A program made the translations under genes and the position numbers. 47,881 nucleotides of DNA, taken from Pseudomonadota bacterium. GTDB taxonomy: Bacteria > Pseudomonadota > Alphaproteobacteria > SP197. How positions within the stretch are numbered: the first letter of the stretch is position 1; each line of letters opens with the position of its first letter. The DNA is taken from contig JAQCLG010000008.1 of assembly GCA_027592745.1 (NCBI GenBank), forward strand, positions 1 to 47,881, given 5' to 3'. Of the stretch, positions 8,407-24,222 are shown piece after piece. Under the pieces are notes generated by a model. That model saw only the letters and a program-made list of their open reading frames with translations, did not search any database and was not told the origin of the DNA.

Positions 8407-8703
8407 TCAGTTGTGGTCGCGCAGGAACCAGGCCAGGCAGACAAAGGCGGCAAGCGCGCCGGCCACCCCGGCCAGGATCGGATTGATCCCAAGCAGGGCG
8501 TCGACCTGAATGTTGATCCAGCGCGTCAGGCTGTTGTTGGTGCGCCCCGTTCCCGCCAGGCCCTGGGCAATCAGCACACCGCCCCACGTGGCGAATGCGA
8601 TGATGGCCGTGGCCGCGGTGAAGGAAAGGATGCGCTTGCCCAGCCTACGGTGAGGGGCGGGCGAGGCAAAGATCGAACGTCTGGAACGTGTGGCAGCAAA
8701 CAT
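8407..8703 (-). CDS. Small two-helix membrane protein downstream of a predicted c-di-GMP riboswitch
   Basis: I do not recognise the family. The 98-residue product has a basic N-terminus (ATRSRRSIF), a hydrophobic segment at ~27-50 (ILSFTAATAIIAFATWGGVL), a polar middle, and a second hydrophobic segment at ~72-93 (ILAGVAGALAAFVCLAWFL), ending in RDHN. That predicts an inner-membrane hairpin protein. Evidence that it is real: ATG with AAGGG 8 nt upstream, two well-placed hydrophobic helices, and a structured leader matching the c-di-GMP-I aptamer. The SD is at the 3' edge of the aptamer, so ligand-dependent control of translation is plausible. It is convergent with the glycosylase gene. Confidence 0.7.
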   Translation of the reverse strand: MFAATRSRRSIFASPAPHRRLGKRILSFTAATAIIAFATWGGVLIAQGLAGTGRTNNSLTRWINIQVDALLGINPILAGVAGALAAFVCLAWFLRDHN

Positions 8704-8708
8704 CGTCG

Positions 8709-8824
8709 GTTCCCTTCGGTGGCCCCGCTACCCGCCGAGGATCGGCGGGCCGGAGGCTTTACCTTGCCCGTGGGCGAAGGCCGGAGGCTTTGCGTCCCGG
8801 CGTTGCCGCCGGTTTGCCGTTATC
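8709..8824 (-). promoter_or_regulatory. Predicted c-di-GMP-I (GEMM) riboswitch with internal direct duplication
   Basis: Read on the minus strand the leader contains GGCAAA, then the stem CCGGCG-GCAA-CGCCGG with a GNRA tetraloop, then GACGCAAAGCCTCCGGCC. This matches the c-di-GMP-I consensus and is nearly identical to the same segment of the Vibrio cholerae Vc2 aptamer. The 3' part is GGTAGCGGGGCCACCGA, again Vc2-like. Between them is an extra 31-nt unit: the 13-mer AAAGCCTCCGGCC occurs twice (8779-8791 and 8748-8760). The second copy is followed by hairpin CGCCGA-TCC-TCGGCG, so either CTCCG could pair with CGGGG. The leader ends at the SD of the small membrane protein gene. The rest of the 8704-9009 gap shows only a small hairpin at 8837-8852. 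Confidence 0.8.
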
Positions 8825-9009
8825 GGGGACATCCTTCATCCCTTGCGGGATGCCGCGCTCGCGGTTGGCCCACGGGACACAGGTTAGGTCCGGGTTCCCC
8901 CGCCGCATGTGATCTGCGTTACATCCGGTAGCGATTTCCTGCCGGCTTGACGCTCGGGAGCGTGCGCCGCCATGATCCGCGCCTCCCATCCCGCATTGCG
9001 AGGCCCTCC

Positions 9010-10188
9010 GTGGCGCTGCAGGCCAATCCCCGAGTCGACGCCGTCCAGGCGCCGCCGATCCCCGAAGCCTGGAGCTGGCTCGACGGCATCGTGCTGCCGC
9101 CGGAGCGGCCCCTGCTCGACGTCTGCCAGGCGGTGCCGGCGGACCCGCCGCCCGAAGCCCTGCGCCGTCACGTCGCCGAACGGGCGCTCGATCCCGCCAC
9201 CGCGCGCTACACCGAGATCTTCGGCATGCCGGCGCTGCGCGAGGCCCTGGCCGGCGACATCGCGGCGCTCTACGGCGGCGATGTGGCGGCGGCCGACTGC
9301 ATGGTTATGGCCGGCTGCAACCAGGCGTTCTTCAATGCCATGGTGGCGCTCTCGGGCCAGGGCGACGAGGTCATCCTGCCGGCTCCCTGGTACTTCAACC
9401 ACCAGATGACCTTGCAGATGCTGGGTGTGAAGGTGGTGCCGCTGCCCTTTCGCGCCGACCGCGGCGGCGTGCCCGATCCTGCCGACCTGCGCGCCCTGGT
9501 CTCGGACCGCACGCGGGCGATCGTCATGGTCTCGCCCAACAACCCCACGGGTGCGCGCTATCCCGACGACGTCATCGACGCGGTGTTCGAGATCGCGCGC
9601 GAGGCCGGATGCGCCCTTGTGCTCGATGAGACCTATCGCGATTTCCTGGCGCCGGGGCAGGCGCCCCACGGCCTCTTCACGCGGCCCGACTGGCGCGACA
9701 CGCTGGTCCATCTCTACAGCTTCTCGAAGGTCTATTGCCTGACCGGCTACCGGGTCGGCGCCGCGGTGGGCGGCCCGGTCTTTCGCGCCGCGATGGAGAA
9801 GGTCACCGACTGCGTCCAGATCTGCGCGCCGCGCCTGGGCCAGGAGGCGGCCCTCTACGGCATCGGCCACCTCGATGCCTGGCGCAAGGCCAATGCCGCG
9901 GTCATGGCCGGGCGTGCGCAGGCGCTGCGGCAGGCCTTCACGCGCGACGACCTGACCTTCGAACTGGTCAGCGCCGGCGCCTACTTTGCCTATGTCCGCC
10001 ATCCCTTCGCGGGCGTGCCCGCGGCCACGGTCGCCCGTCGGCTGGCCCAAGAGTTCGGGCTGCTGTCCCTGCCGGGAAGCTGGTTCGGACCGGGCCAGGA
10101 GGATTACCTGCGGTTTGCCTTCGCCAATCTCGATGCATCGGCGATGCCGGCGATCGCGGCCCGTCTGGTCGAAGGCCAGCAGCTCTAG
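9010..10188 (+). CDS. PLP-dependent aminotransferase, class I/II
   Basis: Fold-type I aminotransferase of 392 residues from this start. The PLP lysine lies in LYSFSKVYCLTGYRVG (around residue 241). Other family landmarks are MVMAGCNQAFFNAMVAL, VSPNNPTGARYP (the conserved NNPTG) and CALVLDETYRDF (the aspartate that pairs with the PLP pyridine nitrogen). An in-frame TTG at 8947 is possible, but the GTG at 9010 has GCGAGG at good spacing and gives the usual N-terminus. The amino donor is not predictable. Its stop codon overlaps that of the convergent secretion-adaptor gene within a shared CTAG. Confidence 0.92.
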   Translation: MALQANPRVDAVQAPPIPEAWSWLDGIVLPPERPLLDVCQAVPADPPPEALRRHVAERALDPATARYTEIFGMPALREALAGDIAALYGGDVAAADCMVMAGCNQAFFNAMVALSGQGDEVILPAPWYFNHQMTLQMLGVKVVPLPFRADRGGVPDPADLRALVSDRTRAIVMVSPNNPTGARYPDDVIDAVFEIAREAGCALVLDETYRDFLAPGQAPHGLFTRPDWRDTLVHLYSFSKVYCLTGYRVGAAVGGPVFRAAMEKVTDCVQICAPRLGQEAALYGIGHLDAWRKANAAVMAGRAQALRQAFTRDDLTFELVSAGAYFAYVRHPFAGVPAATVARRLAQEFGLLSLPGSWFGPGQEDYLRFAFANLDASAMPAIAARLVEGQQL

Positions 10189-11474
10189 CGTTCGCGGAAG
10201 GCCTCGCTCTTGAGCTTGAGCACCGGCTTGAGCAGATAGTGCATCACCGTGTTGGTGCCGGTGTGGATGTCCAGGGTGGCCTCCATGCCCGAGGTGATCG
10301 GCAGGTCGCCGGGCTCCTGGCCCATGTAGGTGCGGTCGGTCGCGGCGATGACACGGAAATAGGTGTTGCCGTTCTCGTCCTGGTGGGAGTCCGGCGAGAC
10401 CAGCATCACCGTCGCCTCCAGCACGCCGTAGCGGATGTAGTCGTAGGTCGAGATCTTGACCACGGCAGGCTGGCCGACGCGGACGTAACCGACATCCTGG
10501 GGATTGAGGCGCGCCTCGATGACGAGCTGTTCGTCGGACGGCACGATGTCCATGATCGCTTCGCCCGGGCGCACCACGGCCCCGATGGTGTGGAAGCGCA
10601 GGCTCTTGACCACGCCGTCGATCGGGCTGGCGATCAGCGTGCGGCGCGACACGGCTGTGGCGCGCGTCAGTTCCTCGCGCGTCGTCTCGATCGCCAGGTC
10701 GACGCTGGAAAGTTCCTCCAGGGCATTGCGCTGGAAGGCCAGATGGGTCTCGTTCAGGCGCTCGCGCGCCTCGACCAGCGCGGACTCGGCGCTGGGCAGG
10801 CCTTCGCGCGTCGAGGAGAGCTGGCCCGACAGGCGTTCGACCTCGGACTGGGCGGCGAGGTGGTCGAGCTTGGAGATCAGGCTGTCCACGATCAGGTCGT
10901 TGGCGATCTCCAGGTTCTGCTGGGCCAGCGCGAGCTGCTCGCGCAGGGTCGCCTCCTCGGCCTGCATCTGGCGCAGGTCGGACTCGCGCTGCTTGATCTG
11001 CTCTTCCAGCGAATTGAGCGCGCTGCGCTGCTCGGCGATGCGGGCGTTGAAGGCATTGCGTTCGTTCTGCGCCGAGGCCGGCCGGCGCTCGGCGACCTCC
11101 TGGGGAAACGACAGCTCGGTATCGTGGGCCTCTGCATCGAGGCGCGCCCGGCGCAGCACCAGCCCGTCCAGCGTGACCGAGAGTTCGGCTTCGCGGGTGT
11201 CGGACTCGGTGAGGTCGAGGCGGACCAGCGGGCTTCCCGTGGTCACCAGGCTGCCCTCGGTGACGAACATCTCGGCGATGATGCCGCCTTCGAGATGCTG
11301 GATCGTCTTGACCTGGCCGACCGGGATGACCTCGCCGAAGGCTGTGGCGACCTCGTCGAGCCTGGCCTGCGAGGCCCAGAGCAGCGCGACGGTCAGCAGC
11401 AGCACGATGGCCCAGGCAAACAGCGTCAGGGCGGAGGGCTTGTTGCGGGCGATGAGGTCGTCGAGTGCGCTCAT
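10185..11474 (-). CDS. Type I secretion periplasmic adaptor, HlyD family
   Basis: Membrane fusion protein of 429 residues. One N-terminal transmembrane helix (LTLFAWAIVLLLTVALLWAS, ~15-35) precedes the split lipoyl/biotinyl-like motif GQVKTIQHLEGGIIAEMFV, a hallmark of HlyD/PrtE adaptors. A long coiled coil (~110-290, rich in E/Q/L/R) follows, then the second half of the lipoyl domain and a beta-barrel (RRTLIASPIDGVVKSL, GMEATLDIHTG). It bridges the ABC exporter and TolC. It starts one base after the stop of the ABC exporter gene, so the two form an operon. Confidence 0.95.
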   Translation of the reverse strand: MSALDDLIARNKPSALTLFAWAIVLLLTVALLWASQARLDEVATAFGEVIPVGQVKTIQHLEGGIIAEMFVTEGSLVTTGSPLVRLDLTESDTREAELSVTLDGLVLRRARLDAEAHDTELSFPQEVAERRPASAQNERNAFNARIAEQRSALNSLEEQIKQRESDLRQMQAEEATLREQLALAQQNLEIANDLIVDSLISKLDHLAAQSEVERLSGQLSSTREGLPSAESALVEARERLNETHLAFQRNALEELSSVDLAIETTREELTRATAVSRRTLIASPIDGVVKSLRFHTIGAVVRPGEAIMDIVPSDEQLVIEARLNPQDVGYVRVGQPAVVKISTYDYIRYGVLEATVMLVSPDSHQDENGNTYFRVIAATDRTYMGQEPGDLPITSGMEATLDIHTGTNTVMHYLLKPVLKLKSEAFRER

Positions 11475-11475
11475 C

Positions 11476-13221
11476 TCAGGCACCCGCGGCTTCGCTGGCA
11501 CGGGCGGCGGGGGCCGCGCCGTCGCGCTGCTTGCCGAAGACCTTGGCCAGCACGTCGCGCGTCGGCCCGGCGATGGCGACCTTGCCCTTTTCCAGCCCCA
11601 GGACATGGGTGCAGGCCGCCAGCAGCACCGGCGTGTGCGTGGCGACCAGGATGGTGTGGTCGCGGCTGAGGCGCACCAGGGTATCGCGCAGGGCCGCCTC
11701 GGCATCGCGGTCGAGGTTGCTTGCGACCTCGTCGAGCAGCAGCACAGGCGGGTCGTTGAGCAGGGCGCGGGCCACGGCGATGCGCTGGCGCTGCCCCCCC
11801 GACAGGCGCATGCCGGCCTCGCCGATGTCGGTGCCGTAGCCGTCCGGCAGGTCGCCGATGAAGCCGTGGGCGCCGGCCGCCTTGGCCGCCGCGACGATAC
11901 GTTCGTCGGAGACCTCGTCGTTCATGCCGGCGATGTTGTCGCGGATGGTGCCGTGGAAAAGGGCGGCCTCCTGGGGCACGTAGCCGATCCAGGGCGCCAG
12001 GTCGTGGCGGGTGTACTGGCTGATGTCGGAACCGTCGAGCAGGACCCGTCCCTGGGCGGGCTGGTAGAGACCCTGCATCAGCTTGAGCAGGGTCGTCTTG
12101 CCCGAGCCGTTTGGGCCGATCAGGCCGATGATGCCGCCCGGCTTGATCTTCATCGAAATGCCGTCGATCACCTTGGTGCCCTCGGCGGTGAAGGCGAAGG
12201 AGACGTTCTCGACCTCGAGAACGCCTTCGGGCCGTGCCAGCGTGATGGTCGCGTTCTGGCGCTCCTCGGCCAGGGCGAAGGCCTCGGTCAGGCGGGCGAG
12301 CGATTGCTTGTAGAGCGCGTAGTTGCGCCAGGTGCCGACAAGCTGGTTGAGCGGCGAGATCAGCCGGTTCGAGAGCATGTTGGTCGCGATCAGCGCACCG
12401 ATGGTGATCTCGTTGTTGAGGATCGCGATGGCGCCAACCGTGGTCATCGCGACGGTCGTGATGAACGACATGCTCATCGAGATGTTGGCAAAGCTGTCGG
12501 ACCAGAAGCCGCGGTCGAGCGAGCGGGAGATGACGCTGGCGTGGCGGCCCTCCCAGCGCTGCTTGAAGCCAGCCTCGATCGCCAGGGCCTTCATGGTGGT
12601 GCGCCCGCCCAGCATCTCCTGGAGCATCGCCTCGCGGTCCAGGATCTGCTCCTTCTCGTGCCGGCTGGCGCCGTCGAGCACGCTGCCCGAGAGCCAGGCG
12701 ATGAGCAGGAAGGCCGGCACGATCACCAGCAGGACCCAGGCGATGGGTGCGGCGATGACGAAGATGATGACGATGAAGATCGGGATGAAGGGCAGTTCGG
12801 CGGCCAGCACCGCGGTGGGGCCCGAGAAGATGTTGCGCACCGTGTCGGCATCGCGAAACAGCGAGGCCCAGTAGCTCTGCGGCCGGCTTTCCAGGGTGAG
12901 CAGGGGCAGGGCCGTGACCTTGTCGAACAGGCTGCGTCCCAGGCGCACGTCGATGCCCGTGGCCGCCCGCTGCAGCACCCGGCTGCGCGCCTGGCGCAGG
13001 ATCAGGTCGAAGGCGATGACGATGGCCACGCCCATGACCAGGGCAACCAGGGTCTTCACGCCATGGTAGAAGACCACCCGGTCGTAGACCTGCAGCACGA
13101 AGATCGGCAGGCCCAGTGCCAGGAGGTTGACGAACAGCGACATCACGGCGACCTCGCGGAAGGCCGGCATCAGCGGCTTCAGCAGGGGCTTGAGCCAGGT
13201 CTTGGTCGTGAATGTCGCCAT
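11476..13221 (-). CDS. Type I secretion ABC transporter, permease/ATPase fusion (PrtD-like)
   Basis: Inner-membrane exporter of 581 residues. An ABC transmembrane domain occupies ~20-310 (LFVNLLALGLPIFVLQVYDR is typical of the PrtD/LapB group), followed by a nucleotide-binding domain. Walker A is GPNGSGKTT, the signature is LSGGQRQRIAVARALL, and Walker B is PVLLLDEVASNLD, all intact. The short N-terminus shows no C39 peptidase domain, so substrates should keep a C-terminal signal rather than a cleaved leader. No RTX-type substrate gene is seen in the window. It forms an operon with the adaptor and is divergent from the adenylate cyclase. Confidence 0.95.
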   Translation of the reverse strand: MATFTTKTWLKPLLKPLMPAFREVAVMSLFVNLLALGLPIFVLQVYDRVVFYHGVKTLVALVMGVAIVIAFDLILRQARSRVLQRAATGIDVRLGRSLFDKVTALPLLTLESRPQSYWASLFRDADTVRNIFSGPTAVLAAELPFIPIFIVIIFVIAAPIAWVLLVIVPAFLLIAWLSGSVLDGASRHEKEQILDREAMLQEMLGGRTTMKALAIEAGFKQRWEGRHASVISRSLDRGFWSDSFANISMSMSFITTVAMTTVGAIAILNNEITIGALIATNMLSNRLISPLNQLVGTWRNYALYKQSLARLTEAFALAEERQNATITLARPEGVLEVENVSFAFTAEGTKVIDGISMKIKPGGIIGLIGPNGSGKTTLLKLMQGLYQPAQGRVLLDGSDISQYTRHDLAPWIGYVPQEAALFHGTIRDNIAGMNDEVSDERIVAAAKAAGAHGFIGDLPDGYGTDIGEAGMRLSGGQRQRIAVARALLNDPPVLLLDEVASNLDRDAEAALRDTLVRLSRDHTILVATHTPVLLAACTHVLGLEKGKVAIAGPTRDVLAKVFGKQRDGAAPAARASEAAGA

Positions 13222-13352
13222 GGCGCCGATCTTGCCACCCCGCAGCCGCGGAAGCTATGGCCCAGAGCGCCCCTGCGGACCCCTTCACCTTGGCGCTTCT
13301 GGTGGGCCGGCGCTGTGCTAGAGTGAACCGGACGGGGGAATACAGGGCGCCC

Positions 13353-15611
13353 ATGAACCGGTTTTTCACAAGCTGGAAGTTCACCTATGCGCTGGCTTTC
13401 GCGCTGCTGGTCGGCATGTTCGCCCTGCGGGCGGATGATCCGTCGCCGCTGAAGATCCTGCGCAACAAGACCTTCGACGTGATGCAGCGCGTGTGGCCGC
13501 GCGAGCCTCCGCCCGAGGGTTATCCCATCAACGTGCGCATCATCGACCTCGACGACGAAAGCCTCGAGGCGATTGGCCAGTGGCCGTGGCCGCGCACCCG
13601 GGTGGCCGAACTGGTGCGTATTCTGGTCGACGACTACCACGTCGCCGCGGTGGCCTTCGACATCGTGTTCGCCGAACCCGACCGGACGGCGCCGGCGCAG
13701 CTCGTCGAGAGCCTCGAGGACATCACGCCGGAGATCCGCGCGGCCCTGCTCAGATTGCCCGACAACGACCAGGTTCTGGCCGAGACCATCGCCGGTCGCC
13801 CGGTGATCCTGGGCCAGGCGACCATCCCGCGCGGCGACCCCCCCGCGGAAGGCGACATTCCCCGCGTCGTGGGTTTCGGCATCAAGAACAACACGCCGGG
13901 CGACGAGGGCCAGCCGCGCAACCATCTCCTGAACTTCCGCAACATCGAGCGCAACCTGCCCGAGCTGGAAGCCAACGCGCCGGGCATCGGCATGTTCTCG
14001 TTCTCCCCCGACGAGGACAACATCGTGCGTCGTGTGCCGCTGGTCGTGGCGGTCAACGGCGAGCTTTACCCCGCACTCAGCGTGGAATCCCTGCGTGTCG
14101 TCCTGGAGCGCCTGCAGGGCACCAGGCTCTCCCTGTTCTTCCAGTACGGCAGCGAGGGCGCGCGTTCGGTCGCCTTCCAGGGCAGCCAGTTCAGCCTGCC
14201 GACCGATGCCAGCGGCCATGCCTGGGTCTACTACGCACCCTATACGCGCGACCGCTACGTGTCGGCCAAGGACGTGATGGACCATTCGGCCGACCCGGCC
14301 CTGCTAGTCAACACCATCGTCATCCTCGGCACCTCGGCGGCCGGCCTGCAGGACATTCGAGCGACGCCGCTTTCGGAAGGCCTGCCGGGCGTGGAGGTGC
14401 ACGCCCAGATTCTCGAGAACATCCTCTCCAACGTCTTCCTCACCCGTGACCAGTACGCACCGATGATCGAGCTGGCAGCGATCATCGTGGCGGGTCTTGC
14501 GATCATGGTGGTCCTGCCCCTGGGCGGCGCCTTGTGGAGCCTCTTTGCCGTCATCCTGGTCAATGCCGGCCTGATGGGCTTTTCCTACTACCAGTTCCGC
14601 GAGGAATACCGCCTGGTCGGCTTCGTCTACCCGCTGCTCTGTTCGGTGCTGCTCTACACCTTCCTCACGATGATGAACTACATGCGCGAGGAGCAGGCCA
14701 AGAAGCAGGTGCGCGGCGCCTTTGCCCAGTACCTCTCGCCTGCCATGGTCGAGGAACTGGCGTCCAATCCCGAGCGCCTGAAGCTGGGCGGCGAGATGCG
14801 CAACATGACGCTGCTGTTCTCCGACATCCGCGGCTTCACCGCGATCTCCGAACAGTTCCGCGGCAATGCCGTGGGCCTGGTCAGCCTGATCAACCGCTTC
14901 CTGACGCCCATGACCGGGATCATCCTCGATCGCAAGGGCACCATCGACAAGTACATGGGCGACTGCATCATGGCGTTCTGGAACGCGCCGCTGCTCGACG
15001 ACGAGCAGGTCGACCACTCGATCGACGCGGCGCTGGCCATGACCGAGGAGGTCGAGCGCATCAACGTCATCATCGAGGCCGAGGCCAAGGCCGAGGGACG
15101 CCGTTTCTTCCCGATCAAGGTCGGCGTCGGCATCAACACCGGCGAGGTCTTCGTCGGCAACATGGGTTCGGACCAGCGTTTCGACTATTCGGTCATCGGC
15201 GACGACGTGAACCTGGCCTCGCGCCTGGAAGGCCAGTCGAAGACCTACGGCGTGATCATCGTCATCGGTCCCAACACCCATGCCGTCGCTGCCGATCTCT
15301 ATGCCACGCTCGAACTCGACAAGATCCAGGTCAAGGGGCGGCAGGAGGCGGTGACGATCTACACGGTGCTCGGCCGCAAGGACATGCTGTCGGACCCGGC
15401 CTACATCGCGTTCAAGGCAAAACACGACGCCATGCTGGTGGCTTACCGGTCGCAGGACTGGGACCTTGCTGAAAGCCTGCTGGCGGAATGCCGGCAGATG
15501 TGGCCCTCGCTCCACGGCCTCCACGATCTCTATGCCGAGCGTATTGCCGAGTTCCGCATCAACCCGCCCGGAGCCGACTGGGACGGCGTCTACGTCGCGA
15601 CGTCGAAGTAG
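13353..15611 (+). CDS. CHASE2-domain membrane adenylate/guanylate cyclase
   Basis: 752 residues: an N-terminal transmembrane helix (~9-25), a large periplasmic CHASE2 sensor domain (~30-365; VRIIDLDDESLEAIGQWPWP, GVEVHAQILENILS), three transmembrane helices (~370-445), and a class III cyclase domain from ~480 (MTLLFSDIRGFTAISEQ). Both metal aspartates (FSDIRGF, MGDCIMAFW) are present. Lys in IDKYMGD and Asp in IGDDVNLASR are the usual adenine-selecting pair, so adenylate cyclase is more likely than guanylate cyclase. I chose the ATG at 13353, directly before the first helix; a weak extended -10 (TGCTAGAGT at 13316-13324) would place transcription just upstream. The gene lies between the two halves of a type I secretion system. 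Confidence 0.93.
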   Translation: MNRFFTSWKFTYALAFALLVGMFALRADDPSPLKILRNKTFDVMQRVWPREPPPEGYPINVRIIDLDDESLEAIGQWPWPRTRVAELVRILVDDYHVAAVAFDIVFAEPDRTAPAQLVESLEDITPEIRAALLRLPDNDQVLAETIAGRPVILGQATIPRGDPPAEGDIPRVVGFGIKNNTPGDEGQPRNHLLNFRNIERNLPELEANAPGIGMFSFSPDEDNIVRRVPLVVAVNGELYPALSVESLRVVLERLQGTRLSLFFQYGSEGARSVAFQGSQFSLPTDASGHAWVYYAPYTRDRYVSAKDVMDHSADPALLVNTIVILGTSAAGLQDIRATPLSEGLPGVEVHAQILENILSNVFLTRDQYAPMIELAAIIVAGLAIMVVLPLGGALWSLFAVILVNAGLMGFSYYQFREEYRLVGFVYPLLCSVLLYTFLTMMNYMREEQAKKQVRGAFAQYLSPAMVEELASNPERLKLGGEMRNMTLLFSDIRGFTAISEQFRGNAVGLVSLINRFLTPMTGIILDRKGTIDKYMGDCIMAFWNAPLLDDEQVDHSIDAALAMTEEVERINVIIEAEAKAEGRRFFPIKVGVGINTGEVFVGNMGSDQRFDYSVIGDDVNLASRLEGQSKTYGVIIVIGPNTHAVAADLYATLELDKIQVKGRQEAVTIYTVLGRKDMLSDPAYIAFKAKHDAMLVAYRSQDWDLAESLLAECRQMWPSLHGLHDLYAERIAEFRINPPGADWDGVYVATSK

Positions 15612-15660
15612 CGTGCCGATCCGCTGCGGTCGCGCGGCGGCACCGGTGCCCCAGAACGAA

Positions 15661-15692
15661 AACGGCCATCGCCCTGCGGCGATGGCCGTTTC
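15661..15692 (+). terminator. Rho-independent terminator of the cyclase gene
   Basis: A perfect 14-bp stem AAACGGCCATCGCC / GGCGATGGCCGTTT with loop CTGC starts about 50 nt after the cyclase stop. The stem ends in TTT and is followed by CCTT. Because its ends are A3/T3 it could also act on the opposite strand. Confidence 0.88.
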
Positions 15693-15720
15693 CTTGAGGT
15701 GTGCCGGACGCGGAAGCGTC

Positions 15721-15784
15721 TAGAGCGGATCACGATCAGCCGGAACCGCTCGGCGGTTCCGGCCAATCGTGTGAATCCGCTCTA
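15721..15784. repeat. 64-nt palindromic intergenic repeat, family B
   Basis: It starts TAGAGCGGAT and ends ATCCGCTCTA. Inside, CACGAT pairs with ATCGTG, and GCCGGAACCGC pairs with GCGGTTCCGGC around a TCG loop. The right arm has an unpaired TGA just inside the outer 10-bp stem. Length (64 nt), TAGAGC ends and the asymmetric bulge next to the outer stem are shared with the family A repeat, but the inner core sequence is unrelated. Only 11 nt separate it from family A copy 2. Confidence 0.75.
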
Positions 15785-15795
15785 CATCAACAAGA

Positions 15796-15859
15796 TAGAG
15801 CAAATTCACATCCTTCCGCGCAATCGCGAAGCGATTCCGCGGAAGGATGATTTGCTCTA
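15796..15859. repeat. 64-nt palindromic intergenic repeat, family A, copy 2
   Basis: Same sequence as positions 3-66 except C at 15817 and G at 15841, which pair with each other and replace the T-A pair of copy 1. The right-hand TAGAGC end, read on the minus strand, supplies the TAG stop codon of the tolC-like gene. The repeat therefore forms the 3' boundary of that coding region. Confidence 0.85.
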
Positions 15860-17488
15860 GTCGAAGCTCCAGGAGCGCGTGAGGTTGGCGTCGGCATCGC
15901 TGTCGACGATGGAGCCTGCGATCAGCGATGCCTGGACCGCATCGTCGCTGCCCGAAGCCTCGGCGACGGTCTCGACTTCGGTCTCGGGCCATGCCAGGGG
16001 CTCGCTGGCCGCGACGATCTCGACGCTCTCGGCAACCGTGGCGGTCTCGCTCACCGCGACGGTCTCGACGGCCTCGGCCGGTGCGCTTTCGGGCATGGGC
16101 TCGGAAGCCAGGGCAACCGTCGCCTGATCGGCGCTTGCGGTCAGGTTGATCTCGGAGGCATCGGAATCGAGCGCGGAAATGTCCTGGGGCGCCGTCGCGC
16201 CGATCCGGTCGGGGGTCAGGCGGCCCATGGCCTGGAGCAGGCGATAGACGCCCAGGTATATGTCGTACTGTGCGCCGACCAGGTTGATCTGGGCGTTGAA
16301 CACGTCGTTCTGGGCGTCGAGCACGTTCAGGACCGTTTCCTGGCCGGCATCGCGCAGCCGGACCCGTGCGCCATGGACCTCGATGGCGATGTTCACGGCA
16401 TTTTCCAGCAGCTCGACCCGCTCGCGCGAGGTCGTGTACTGTTCCCAGGCAAGTTCGGTGTCGCGGATCACCACGCGCGACATCGCCGTGCGGTCGTTGA
16501 CCGCCGCGACGTACTGATAGGCCGAGCGGGCGACGCCGGCATCGGTGGCAAAACCGCTGAAGATCTGCCAGTTGGCCTCGACCAGAACGGCGGCGTCGCG
16601 GCGCACGCCTTCGGTGCCGTTGACGTCGTCCTCCCAGTTCAGGCGGCCGACCAGGTCGACCGTGGGATAGTAGCCCGAGCGCGCCGCGATGCGGGCCTCC
16701 TCGGCGAACTGGACGTTGTAGTCGCTGCCATAGCCGCGCGGATTCTCGGCTTCCGCGATGGCGACGGCCTCGGCCAGGGTCGCCGGAATCTCGGCCTCGG
16801 GAACCGGGGGCAGGCTCATCGCCGGAATTACCGGGTCGTGCCCGAACAGGCGGCGGTAGCGGGCAAGCTGCTGGTCGAGATTGCCTTCGAAGGCGACCTT
16901 GCGCTCCTGGGCGATCTGCAGGCGGGTCTTGGCCTGCAGCTCATCGAGCGTGATGCCCGAACCGCGCTCGACACGCTCGGTCTCGAGGTTGAGCTGGGTC
17001 CGGATCACCGACACGTTCTGTTCGGCAAGATCGATCAGGGCGCCGTCACGCAGCACCTCGAGATAGGTGCTGATGCCCTGGAACATCAGGTCCTGCGTCG
17101 TGTTTTCCAGGGTCGCATCGGCGACCTCACTGGAAAGCTGGGCGCTGTCGTAGTTCGACTGCGTGCCCCAGCCGTCGAAGAGGCGCTGGCGCAGCGTTGC
17201 CGTGACCCGGCGGCGCGTCAGGTCGACGTCCTCGCTGTCGGTCGGCGCTTCGGTGTGTTCGTAGCCGACGTCGCCCGACAGGTCGAGGGTCGGCAGGAAG
17301 CCGGCATAGGCCTCGTTGATGGTCTCGTCGGAGGCATAGGCCTGATTGCGCAGGCTGTTGATCTCGGGGCTGTCGGCAAGCAGCACGCTCATCTCGTCGC
17401 TCAGGCTCTGGGCCCGTGCGTGCTGTGCGCCGAGCGCCATGCCCACCACCAGAGCAAGACGCGATACCGACGAAAAACGCAAGGCCAT
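15857..17488 (-). CDS. TolC family outer membrane channel with long acidic C-terminal tail
   Basis: Outer-membrane efflux/secretion duct, 543 residues. A signal peptide (residues 1-27, LALVVGMALGAQHARAQ) precedes two OEP repeats (~30-430), with the TolC-typical SEINSLRNQAYASDETINEA region, TVDLVGRLNWEDD and ETVLNVLDAQNDVFNAQINL. After VYRLLQAMGRLTPDRI, where most TolC proteins end, a tail of about 115 residues follows that is rich in A, S, V, E and D (for example EAVETVAVSETATVAESVE) and ends RSWSFD. I chose the ATG at 17488 because GGGGAG lies 7 nt upstream; a TTG at 17503 is in frame. It is probably the outer-membrane partner of the nearby adaptor and ABC exporter. The stop codon is supplied by a palindromic repeat. 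Confidence 0.92.
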   Translation of the reverse strand: MALRFSSVSRLALVVGMALGAQHARAQSLSDEMSVLLADSPEINSLRNQAYASDETINEAYAGFLPTLDLSGDVGYEHTEAPTDSEDVDLTRRRVTATLRQRLFDGWGTQSNYDSAQLSSEVADATLENTTQDLMFQGISTYLEVLRDGALIDLAEQNVSVIRTQLNLETERVERGSGITLDELQAKTRLQIAQERKVAFEGNLDQQLARYRRLFGHDPVIPAMSLPPVPEAEIPATLAEAVAIAEAENPRGYGSDYNVQFAEEARIAARSGYYPTVDLVGRLNWEDDVNGTEGVRRDAAVLVEANWQIFSGFATDAGVARSAYQYVAAVNDRTAMSRVVIRDTELAWEQYTTSRERVELLENAVNIAIEVHGARVRLRDAGQETVLNVLDAQNDVFNAQINLVGAQYDIYLGVYRLLQAMGRLTPDRIGATAPQDISALDSDASEINLTASADQATVALASEPMPESAPAEAVETVAVSETATVAESVEIVAASEPLAWPETEVETVAEASGSDDAVQASLIAGSIVDSDADANLTRSWSFD

Positions 17489-17603
17489 GGCCGAACTCCC
17501 CAAAAGTCTGGAATGCGGAAGTTACTGCACGCGCCCGCCGAAACCGGTCGAAATCCCAGCGGCGAGCCGGTCGCTGCCGCGCCCCCATACCAGTCGAAGC
17601 CTC

Positions 17604-23377: not shown

Positions 23378-23965
23378 TCAGATCACGCCGGCAAGCATGC
23401 CGACGCCGGCCAGCGCCATGACGCTGCCCGCCGAACGCACGGCCCACTGGCCCGTGCGGCGGCTGCCGTAGCCGGCGGCCATGCCGATCGCGATGCCGAT
23501 GCCATGGAGCATGGCGGTGGCGGCAACGAAGCCGGCGGCATAGGTCAGCGCCGAAGCACCTGCGGGAATCTCGGCCCCGTGGGCATGGCCATGGAACAGG
23601 GCAAAGGCGCCAACCAGCGCCATGGCGCCCGCCACCGGCAGGCTCAGGCGCAGGGCGACGGCCGCGCCCAGAACGACGACCGAAAGGGCGATGCCGAGTT
23701 CGACCATCGGCACCTGGATGCCGGCCATGGCAAGGGCGCCGCCACCGGCCATCATCGCGACGAAGGCGAGCGGAACCAGCCACAGCGCCTTGCCGCCGCG
23801 CGCGGCGGCAAACAGGCCCACCGCGATCATCGCCAGCAGGTGGTCGAGACCGAGCAGGGGATGGGTGAAACCGGCGGCAAGACCGCCGTGGGGGCCCACG
23901 CCGGTATGGGCGAAGGCAGGCATGGCCGTTGCTACGAGAGTAGCGGCAACAAGAACGATACGCAT
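23378..23965 (-). CDS. hupE: HupE/UreJ family metal transporter under B12 control
   Basis: 195 residues. A signal-like N-terminus (LVAATLVATAMPAFAH) is followed by about six hydrophobic helices. The family signature is HPLLGLDHLLAMIAVGL after HTGVGPHGG, and a second histidine cluster FHGHAHGAEIP lies at ~120-131. HupE/UreJ proteins are nickel or cobalt permeases. Here a cobalamin riboswitch directly upstream points to cobalt uptake for B12 synthesis rather than nickel for hydrogenase or urease. ATG at 23965 has AAGGA 7 nt upstream. Confidence 0.92.
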   Translation of the reverse strand: MRIVLVAATLVATAMPAFAHTGVGPHGGLAAGFTHPLLGLDHLLAMIAVGLFAAARGGKALWLVPLAFVAMMAGGGALAMAGIQVPMVELGIALSVVVLGAAVALRLSLPVAGAMALVGAFALFHGHAHGAEIPAGASALTYAAGFVAATAMLHGIGIAIGMAAGYGSRRTGQWAVRSAGSVMALAGVGMLAGVI

Positions 23966-24015
23966 GAGAAGTCCTTTCCCGGGGCCCGCCGCCCCGTCGT
24001 TGTGGTCGTGACGCG

Positions 24016-24165
24016 TGACGGCCGGTCTCCTGGCTCGAAGCCTGGCTGTCTGCCTTCCCAGCCCTGGGGCCAGTGGCATCGTGATAGCAAGATTGCTTCC
24101 TACAGTCGCGGGGGCGGCGCCGGAATCGGACCGGCTTCCCGTTTCACCTCAAGGCGAGGCACCGT
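24016..24165 (-). promoter_or_regulatory. Cobalamin (AdoCbl) riboswitch upstream of hupE
   Basis: On the minus strand the leader runs GGTGCC (24163-24158), then AAACGGGAAGCCGGT, CCGATTCCGGCGC, GCCCCCGCGACTGTAGG, a variable stem, GGAAGGCAGACAGCCAGG, and the B12 box GAGCCAGGAGACCGGCC (ending near 24021). Order and spacing of all conserved cobalamin-riboswitch blocks are present. The aptamer ends about 50 nt before the hupE ATG. High B12 should repress hupE. This occupies most of the 257-nt gap between the DUF1028 gene and hupE. Confidence 0.93.
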
Positions 24166-24222
24166 CGCCGCGCTCTGCACGGCGGCCCGTGGGGGGGCAA
24201 GGGCGACCTTTCGGACGGGCGT

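Follow-up and report, generated by a model that had tools for sequence, protein, structure and literature searches.

The stretch of DNA analysed here (in the following, the window) comprises 47.9 kb of the genome of a marine, uncultured alphaproteobacterium (G000; 3.85 Mb in 263 contigs). An open reading frame on its minus strand (8407-8703) encodes a protein of 98 residues, designated class A below. According to its hydropathy profile, the protein possesses a basic N-terminus, a transmembrane segment at about residues 25-48, an amphipathic stretch, a second transmembrane segment at about 75-95 and a charged C-terminus (RDHN). AlphaFold2, run with eight sequences, predicts helices at 20-50, 56-71 and 75-97, although with low confidence (pLDDT 61). 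No significant match was found in Pfam, NCBIfam or PHROGs, and a search for remote homology did not reveal any relative; the gene thus proved to be what a first-pass annotation had taken it for, a small membrane protein of an unfamiliar family. In the conserved class A locus, the gene order is cyclase, ABC transporter, HlyD, aminotransferase, RNA leader with the small gene, DNA glycosylase, Sel1 protein and OCD-type enzyme. In the window, HlyD (10185-11474, minus strand), the ABC transporter (11476-13221, minus) and a CHASE2-nucleotide cyclase (13212-15611, plus) were assigned with Pfam and by synteny in relatives, and an outer-membrane efflux protein (15857-17503, minus) with Pfam. In this conserved neighbourhood (10185-17503), type I secretion genes stand beside a CHASE2 cyclase, close to the small gene with its CRP-type box (see below). 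The class A orthologs, found in syntenic positions, are mostly 34-73% identical, compared to mostly 50-92% for the neighbours, and most of them have 98-99 residues. Hence, the small protein evolves fast yet stays in frame.

The leader of this gene had been read in the first-pass annotation as a c-di-GMP-I riboswitch on the basis of conserved core motifs (GGCAAA, a stem with a GCAA tetraloop, and others), and a covariance search had been named as the way to check it. All these motifs are present in the sequence. Furthermore, a cmscan of the entire window against Rfam returned a significant match to RF01051 (c-di-GMP-I, GEMM-I) at 8828-8715 on the minus strand, with 56.4 bits (gathering score, 35 bits), an E value of 1.8e-8 and coverage of model positions 1-87 of 87. 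The first hairpin is CCGGCG-GCAA-CGCCGG and thus carries a GNRA tetraloop. In Vc2 numbering (the offset between G20 and A47 being 27), G20 corresponds to 8818, G21 to 8817, C46-A47 to 8792-8791 and C92 to 8719. The residues known to contact c-di-GMP, i.e., G20, A47 and C92 (PMC4744006, PMC9049102), are all intact. We conclude that the window RNA is almost certainly a genuine c-di-GMP-I riboswitch, which, judging from these residues, would bind c-di-GMP. The element had originally been placed at 8709-8824; the site was right, but with helix P1, delineated by comparative analysis, the riboswitch spans 8829-8711, and a 31-nt duplication at 8778-8748 had been missed. This insertion in the P3 loop duplicates AAAGCCTCCGGCC and offers a second possible 5' strand for P3. 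The only other Rfam family detected in the 47.9-kb window is a cobalamin riboswitch (24003-24181, minus; 114.6 bits), which precedes a gene for a HupE/UreJ-type membrane protein (23378-24079, minus), probably a cobalt/nickel transporter.

Four RF01051 matches above the cut-off are present in the genome of the window (80.6, 66.2, 56.4 and 50.2 bits). Besides, the RNA was found in 11 of the 16 genomes examined from the same family and was absent from the other five. GGDEF domains, the mark of c-di-GMP-producing enzymes, are encoded in exactly the same 11 genomes and in none of the five genomes without the RNA. The naive probability of this co-occurrence (1/4368) is inflated by relatedness, as all five negatives belong to one genus. 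The first-pass annotation considered an alphaproteobacterial case notable. Indeed, such RNAs are uncommon, but they are neither unique to this family nor exceptional, since matches above the cut-off turned up in 34 of the 386 alphaproteobacterial genomes sampled; c-di-GMP-I RNAs are therefore uncommon but established in Alphaproteobacteria. Close leaders were found in metagenome-assembled genomes of uncultured Rhodospirillaceae, Rhodospirillales and Alphaproteobacteria as well as in the isolate Phenylobacterium sp. Root700. In the open-access texts searched, no joint mention of Alphaproteobacteria with either the name c-di-GMP-I or RF01051 was found, which by itself does not establish its absence from the literature.

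The small protein is closely tied to this RNA. A profile of the protein and its paralogs detected members in eight of the 16 genomes of the family, and nowhere else among the 386 alphaproteobacterial genomes sampled. Two classes can be distinguished: class A, which contains the window gene and ends in RDHN or RDH, and class B, ending in WVRGR. All eight genomes carry RF01051, and their class A and class B genes are located directly behind the RNA, with the ATG 12-14 nt past the aptamer core in nearly all leaders. The leader-gene pair, which we had been advised to look for in relatives, thus recurs in eight genomes. Two weaker paralogs (G004 and G007, ~39 bits) have no detectable RNA upstream.

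Some copies of the RNA deviate from the consensus. The fourth RNA of the window's genome (L004, G000:C201:20630-20705, plus; 50.2 bits) shows GGCAACC and GCAGAG deviations. Behind it lies what seems to be a degenerate class B gene: the reading frame opens as in class B (MSASRTPTGTT) and then diverges. Its neighbour encodes a sensor-type membrane protein truncated at the end of the contig. Two sister leaders, L016 (1501-1586, minus) and L043, have GACAAA (G21A, opposite C46), and L016 additionally has C92U, an altered Shine-Dalgarno sequence and no convincing CRP box. Their ligand sites are possibly altered or decaying. A natural c-di-AMP switch was considered for these two leaders and rejected: the deviations are G21A (and C92U), and a DAC gene is absent from the family. 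Furthermore, two divergent leaders below the threshold (L099 in G004:C61 and L100 in G007:C196; 26-28 bits), with ATGACTAACC replacing GGCAAACC, precede a class D gene of ~90 amino acids and possibly represent a variant aptamer.

The Shine-Dalgarno sequence of the small gene (GGGA, 8714-8711) adjoins the 3' end of the aptamer and is followed by 7 bases and the ATG at 8703. The aptamer had been described as stopping at the Shine-Dalgarno; the two do abut, but the comparison of leaders predicts that the Shine-Dalgarno itself belongs to helix P1. The RF01051 model omits P1. The flanks of 59 alphaproteobacterial leaders were compared. Their consensus is U9 C10 C11 (C/U)12 C13 G14 on the 5' side and C93 G94 A95 A96 (G/A)97 G98 G99 A100 on the 3' side, where positions 97-100 are the Shine-Dalgarno. 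In the window, the putative P1 strands are U9 C10 C11 C12 C13 G14 (8824-8829, minus), the strand complementary to the Shine-Dalgarno, and C93 G94, bulged A95 A96 and G97 G98 G99 A100 (8711-8718, minus). They would form six pairs (9-100, 10-99, 11-98, 12-97, 13-94 and 14-93) interrupted by the 2-nt bulge, with UCCC (8829-8826) facing GGGA. The G14-C93 pair is present in 58 of the 59 leaders and C13-G94 in 56 (plus one U-G), and position 12-97 covaries (C-G 16, U-A 14, U-G 13, A-U 2, G-U 1). In the four-pair extension of P1, 192 of 236 cells are paired; its score is 177, while permutations average 165 (sd 3.3) and the neighbouring registers reach 144.5 and 118. After dereplication to 49, 25 or 16 sequences, the permutation p value is 0.001-0.003 and the register is still the best one. 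Note that UCC and GGA are poorly complementary in a fair share of the leaders from outside the window's family. As the pairing covaries and survives dereplication, it is very probable that P1 uses the Shine-Dalgarno as its 3' strand.

The window RNA resembles Vc2 and Vc1 of Vibrio cholerae in its two-hairpin core, GNRA tetraloop, G20/A47/C92 and lack of a terminator context. Vc1, however, has no apparent anti-Shine-Dalgarno sequence (PMC4744006), whereas in the alphaproteobacterial leaders the Shine-Dalgarno is predicted to double as the 3' strand of P1; a separate expression platform would then not be needed. What is new here is this comparative case for an expression platform apparently built into P1. 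Upstream of the aptamer, a leader hairpin CATCCC-GCAA-GGGATG (8837-8852, minus) is found, with compensatory CATTCC/GGAAT in a sister species. Its UCCC could serve as an alternative partner for the Shine-Dalgarno.

Further upstream, a candidate CRP-type operator, TGTAACGCAGATCACA, is located at 8908-8923 on the minus strand. This box (TGTAA-N6-TCACA) matches TGTGA-N6-TCACA in 9 of 10 positions and is the only 16-mer with at least 9/10 matches in the 47.9-kb window. A candidate -10 hexamer, TAACCT (8881-8886, minus), lies 29 nt from the operator centre, a spacing identical in six orthologs, and transcription would start near 8874. In class II CRP promoters, the operator is centred near -41.5; relative to the candidate hexamer, the box sits in this geometry. 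Class A orthologs have the box as well, and in six of them (the window gene included) exactly 21 bases separate it from a -10-like hexamer. In fact, boxes with 8-10 matches are found upstream of nearly all leaders of the family, in all gene classes, and of several leaders outside it. A box with at least 9/10 matches is present in 23 of 59 leaders, compared to 0.4-1% of background stretches. The genome of the window encodes one CRP-type protein (C204:10518-11168) with a recognition helix of the RETV-x-R type (RETVAR), and its cyclic-nucleotide cassette looks canonical. Of the 11 family genomes with the RNA, 9 encode CRP homologs (E value 1e-20 or better), and the five without it encode none. 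These observations suggest CRP control of the small gene, and a CRP-family protein is likely to be a second regulator.

Our preferred explanation, which we consider reasonably probable as a whole, is that a canonical c-di-GMP-I riboswitch controls translation of the two-transmembrane protein as an OFF switch under a CRP-type promoter. A CRP-family protein bound at 8908-8923 would activate this promoter, with transcription probably starting at the site predicted above. The aptamer would then fold in the mRNA, and c-di-GMP, held via G20 and C92, would stack between P1 and the junction, around A47, while in outer P1 the UCCC would be paired to the GGGA of the Shine-Dalgarno. Ligand binding would stabilise P1, hide the Shine-Dalgarno and thereby decrease translation; at low c-di-GMP, P1 would open and the protein would be made. 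If the ligand lowers translation in this way, the protein would belong to the low-c-di-GMP state and would need the CRP signal too. As a weakly held guess, it may be an envelope regulator tied to the adjoining secretion/cyclase locus.

The proposed polarity follows from the class I fold, whose junction and P1 become more stable once c-di-GMP is bound. With the Shine-Dalgarno in P1, the ligand is expected to hide it, and translational OFF polarity appears fairly probable. When the top of P1 was locked in ViennaRNA foldings of predicted transcripts, pairing of the Shine-Dalgarno increased in 19 of 34 leaders and decreased in 7; in the window copy, it rose from 0.54 to 0.89. The predicted change is modest and non-uniform because the Shine-Dalgarno is already ~60% paired on average in ligand-free folding. 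Its partners there are mostly the 3' strand of P3 or downstream or upstream sequence, and the thermodynamic polarity across leaders is mixed, without a uniform direction. The opposite behaviour is therefore a standing rival, although we regard it as rather unlikely: without ligand, the Shine-Dalgarno would be sequestered by other sequences, either C92-C93 (in a CC-GAAG-GG mini-hairpin) or the UCCC in the hairpin upstream of the aptamer, and c-di-GMP would recruit C92/C93, free the Shine-Dalgarno and raise the protein level. Besides the free-folding partners, the leader L030 of an ortholog (with an upstream GUCUCCC as a perfect Shine-Dalgarno partner) and the positive action of Vc1 (PMC4744006) speak for such an ON switch. 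However, the competing pairs are short and their positions are not conserved, whereas the UCC/GGA pairing of P1 is conserved and covaries. Terminator-based control was ruled out, as no terminator is present between the aptamer and the ATG, the sole terminator-like site on the same strand being inside the reading frame. In this respect, the leader differs from the Clostridium difficile class I switches (zmpI, flgB), which share the aptamer class but use transcription termination and, where functional, are OFF switches (PMC6366702); zmpI, encoding a surface-protein protease, is one of these and offers a parallel to the OFF polarity proposed here. Class I switches of both polarities are known, including ones that do not act by termination, and polarity should not be extrapolated from one to another (PMC6366702).

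The duplication in P3 raises the question of whether the window copy is weakened or dying. In such a case, the second GCCUCCGG copy would take the 3' strand of P3 and move A47 off the pocket, and a higher ligand concentration would be needed or switching would be abolished. Indeed, the first register forms the known core, but copy 2 can replace copy 1 and, in that arrangement, runs on into a strong hairpin, and its register is better by ~3.8 (about 4) kcal/mol according to nearest-neighbour energies. Furthermore, the Rfam score of the window copy is 56.4 bits versus 65.6 in the sister leader, and the duplication is confined to the window copy; the orthologous leader in the sister species (protein 73% identical) lacks it, as do all others. 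The inserted stretch resembles P3 of the leaders of ParA-class genes; at a guess, it arose by recombination. If the duplication is real and not an assembly error, ligand affinity would be shifted a few hundred-fold or the switch would be disabled. Nevertheless, we consider a weakened or dying switch unlikely: the contact residues and P1 are all intact, as are the downstream reading frame and the CRP-type box, and high-affinity ligand binding could pay for 4 kcal/mol, so that the set point would be shifted and the function kept. It is very improbable that the RNA senses another cyclic dinucleotide, e.g., 3',3'-cGAMP. The GEMM-Ib riboswitches of Geobacter, which bind 3',3'-cGAMP, share clan and architecture with it, A20-bearing c-di-GMP-I relatives bind cGAMP (PMC7288161), and two sister leaders (L016 and L043) deviate at G21, one of them also at C92. 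The window copy, however, has G instead of the GEMM-Ib hallmark A20 at 8818, and its G20, G21 and C92 are all of the c-di-GMP type; c-di-AMP is an unlikely ligand, the DAC enzyme being absent from the family. That chance or non-RNA conservation (a protein-binding site or a repeat) was mistaken for an aptamer is hardly conceivable. Nothing was found in favour of this possibility, and it is contradicted by the full-length covariance match, the four copies in the genome, the P1 covariation in 59 leaders and the absence of matches above the RF01051 cut-off in all 14 control genomes.

Other genes are found behind this RNA as well and, judging from their position, would be controlled by it. In the family, one kind of product is a ParA-type ATPase that carries a leader segment and scores best, though under the cut-off, with the NCBIfam model ParA_partition; another is a soluble protein of ~90 residues without a known family. 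In other Alphaproteobacteria, these genes encode a LapG-like Peptidase_C93 (E value 1.3e-18), a response regulator, a PilZ-like protein just under the Pfam cut-off and other small proteins. In L017, L032, L084, L085, L118 and L122, the RNA directly precedes LapG-like genes, and RNA-level control of adhesin release is possible at these loci. In the LapD/LapG system, c-di-GMP keeps the periplasmic protease inactive, i.e., LapG acts at low c-di-GMP, and OFF polarity of an RNA in front of LapG-like proteases fits this behaviour. The likeness to LapD/LapG lies in the same RNA leader preceding a LapG-like gene in other Alphaproteobacteria; the difference is that the mode there would be translational control at the RNA level, and that the window gene does not encode a protease. 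Furthermore, L110 contains two RNAs before two short tandem PilZ-like reading frames, and the leader in L103 precedes an open frame of 437 residues resembling the N-domain of a secretion ATPase; these products are possibly c-di-GMP sensors under a c-di-GMP RNA.

Flagellin is absent from all 16 family genomes, and the c-di-GMP circuit is therefore not flagellar. A family-wide regulon, in which each gene has a CRP-family box and a c-di-GMP-I RNA with the Shine-Dalgarno in P1, with a non-flagellar output and with the small membrane proteins, the ParA-like ATPase and the ~90-aa soluble protein as its targets, is plausible, although on balance slightly doubtful. Such a regulon would place a coherent set of genes from uncultured, little-described Alphaproteobacteria under a classical second-messenger riboswitch. 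Its genes are new candidates for c-di-GMP outputs, among them two paralogous classes of small membrane proteins that occur almost only behind the RNA. With the Shine-Dalgarno sequence inside P1, ligand binding would be coupled to translation in about the simplest way, and the resulting polarity prediction is clear and can be tested cheaply. Finally, the recurrence of CRP-type boxes points to the integration of two nucleotide signals on one mRNA in these bacteria.
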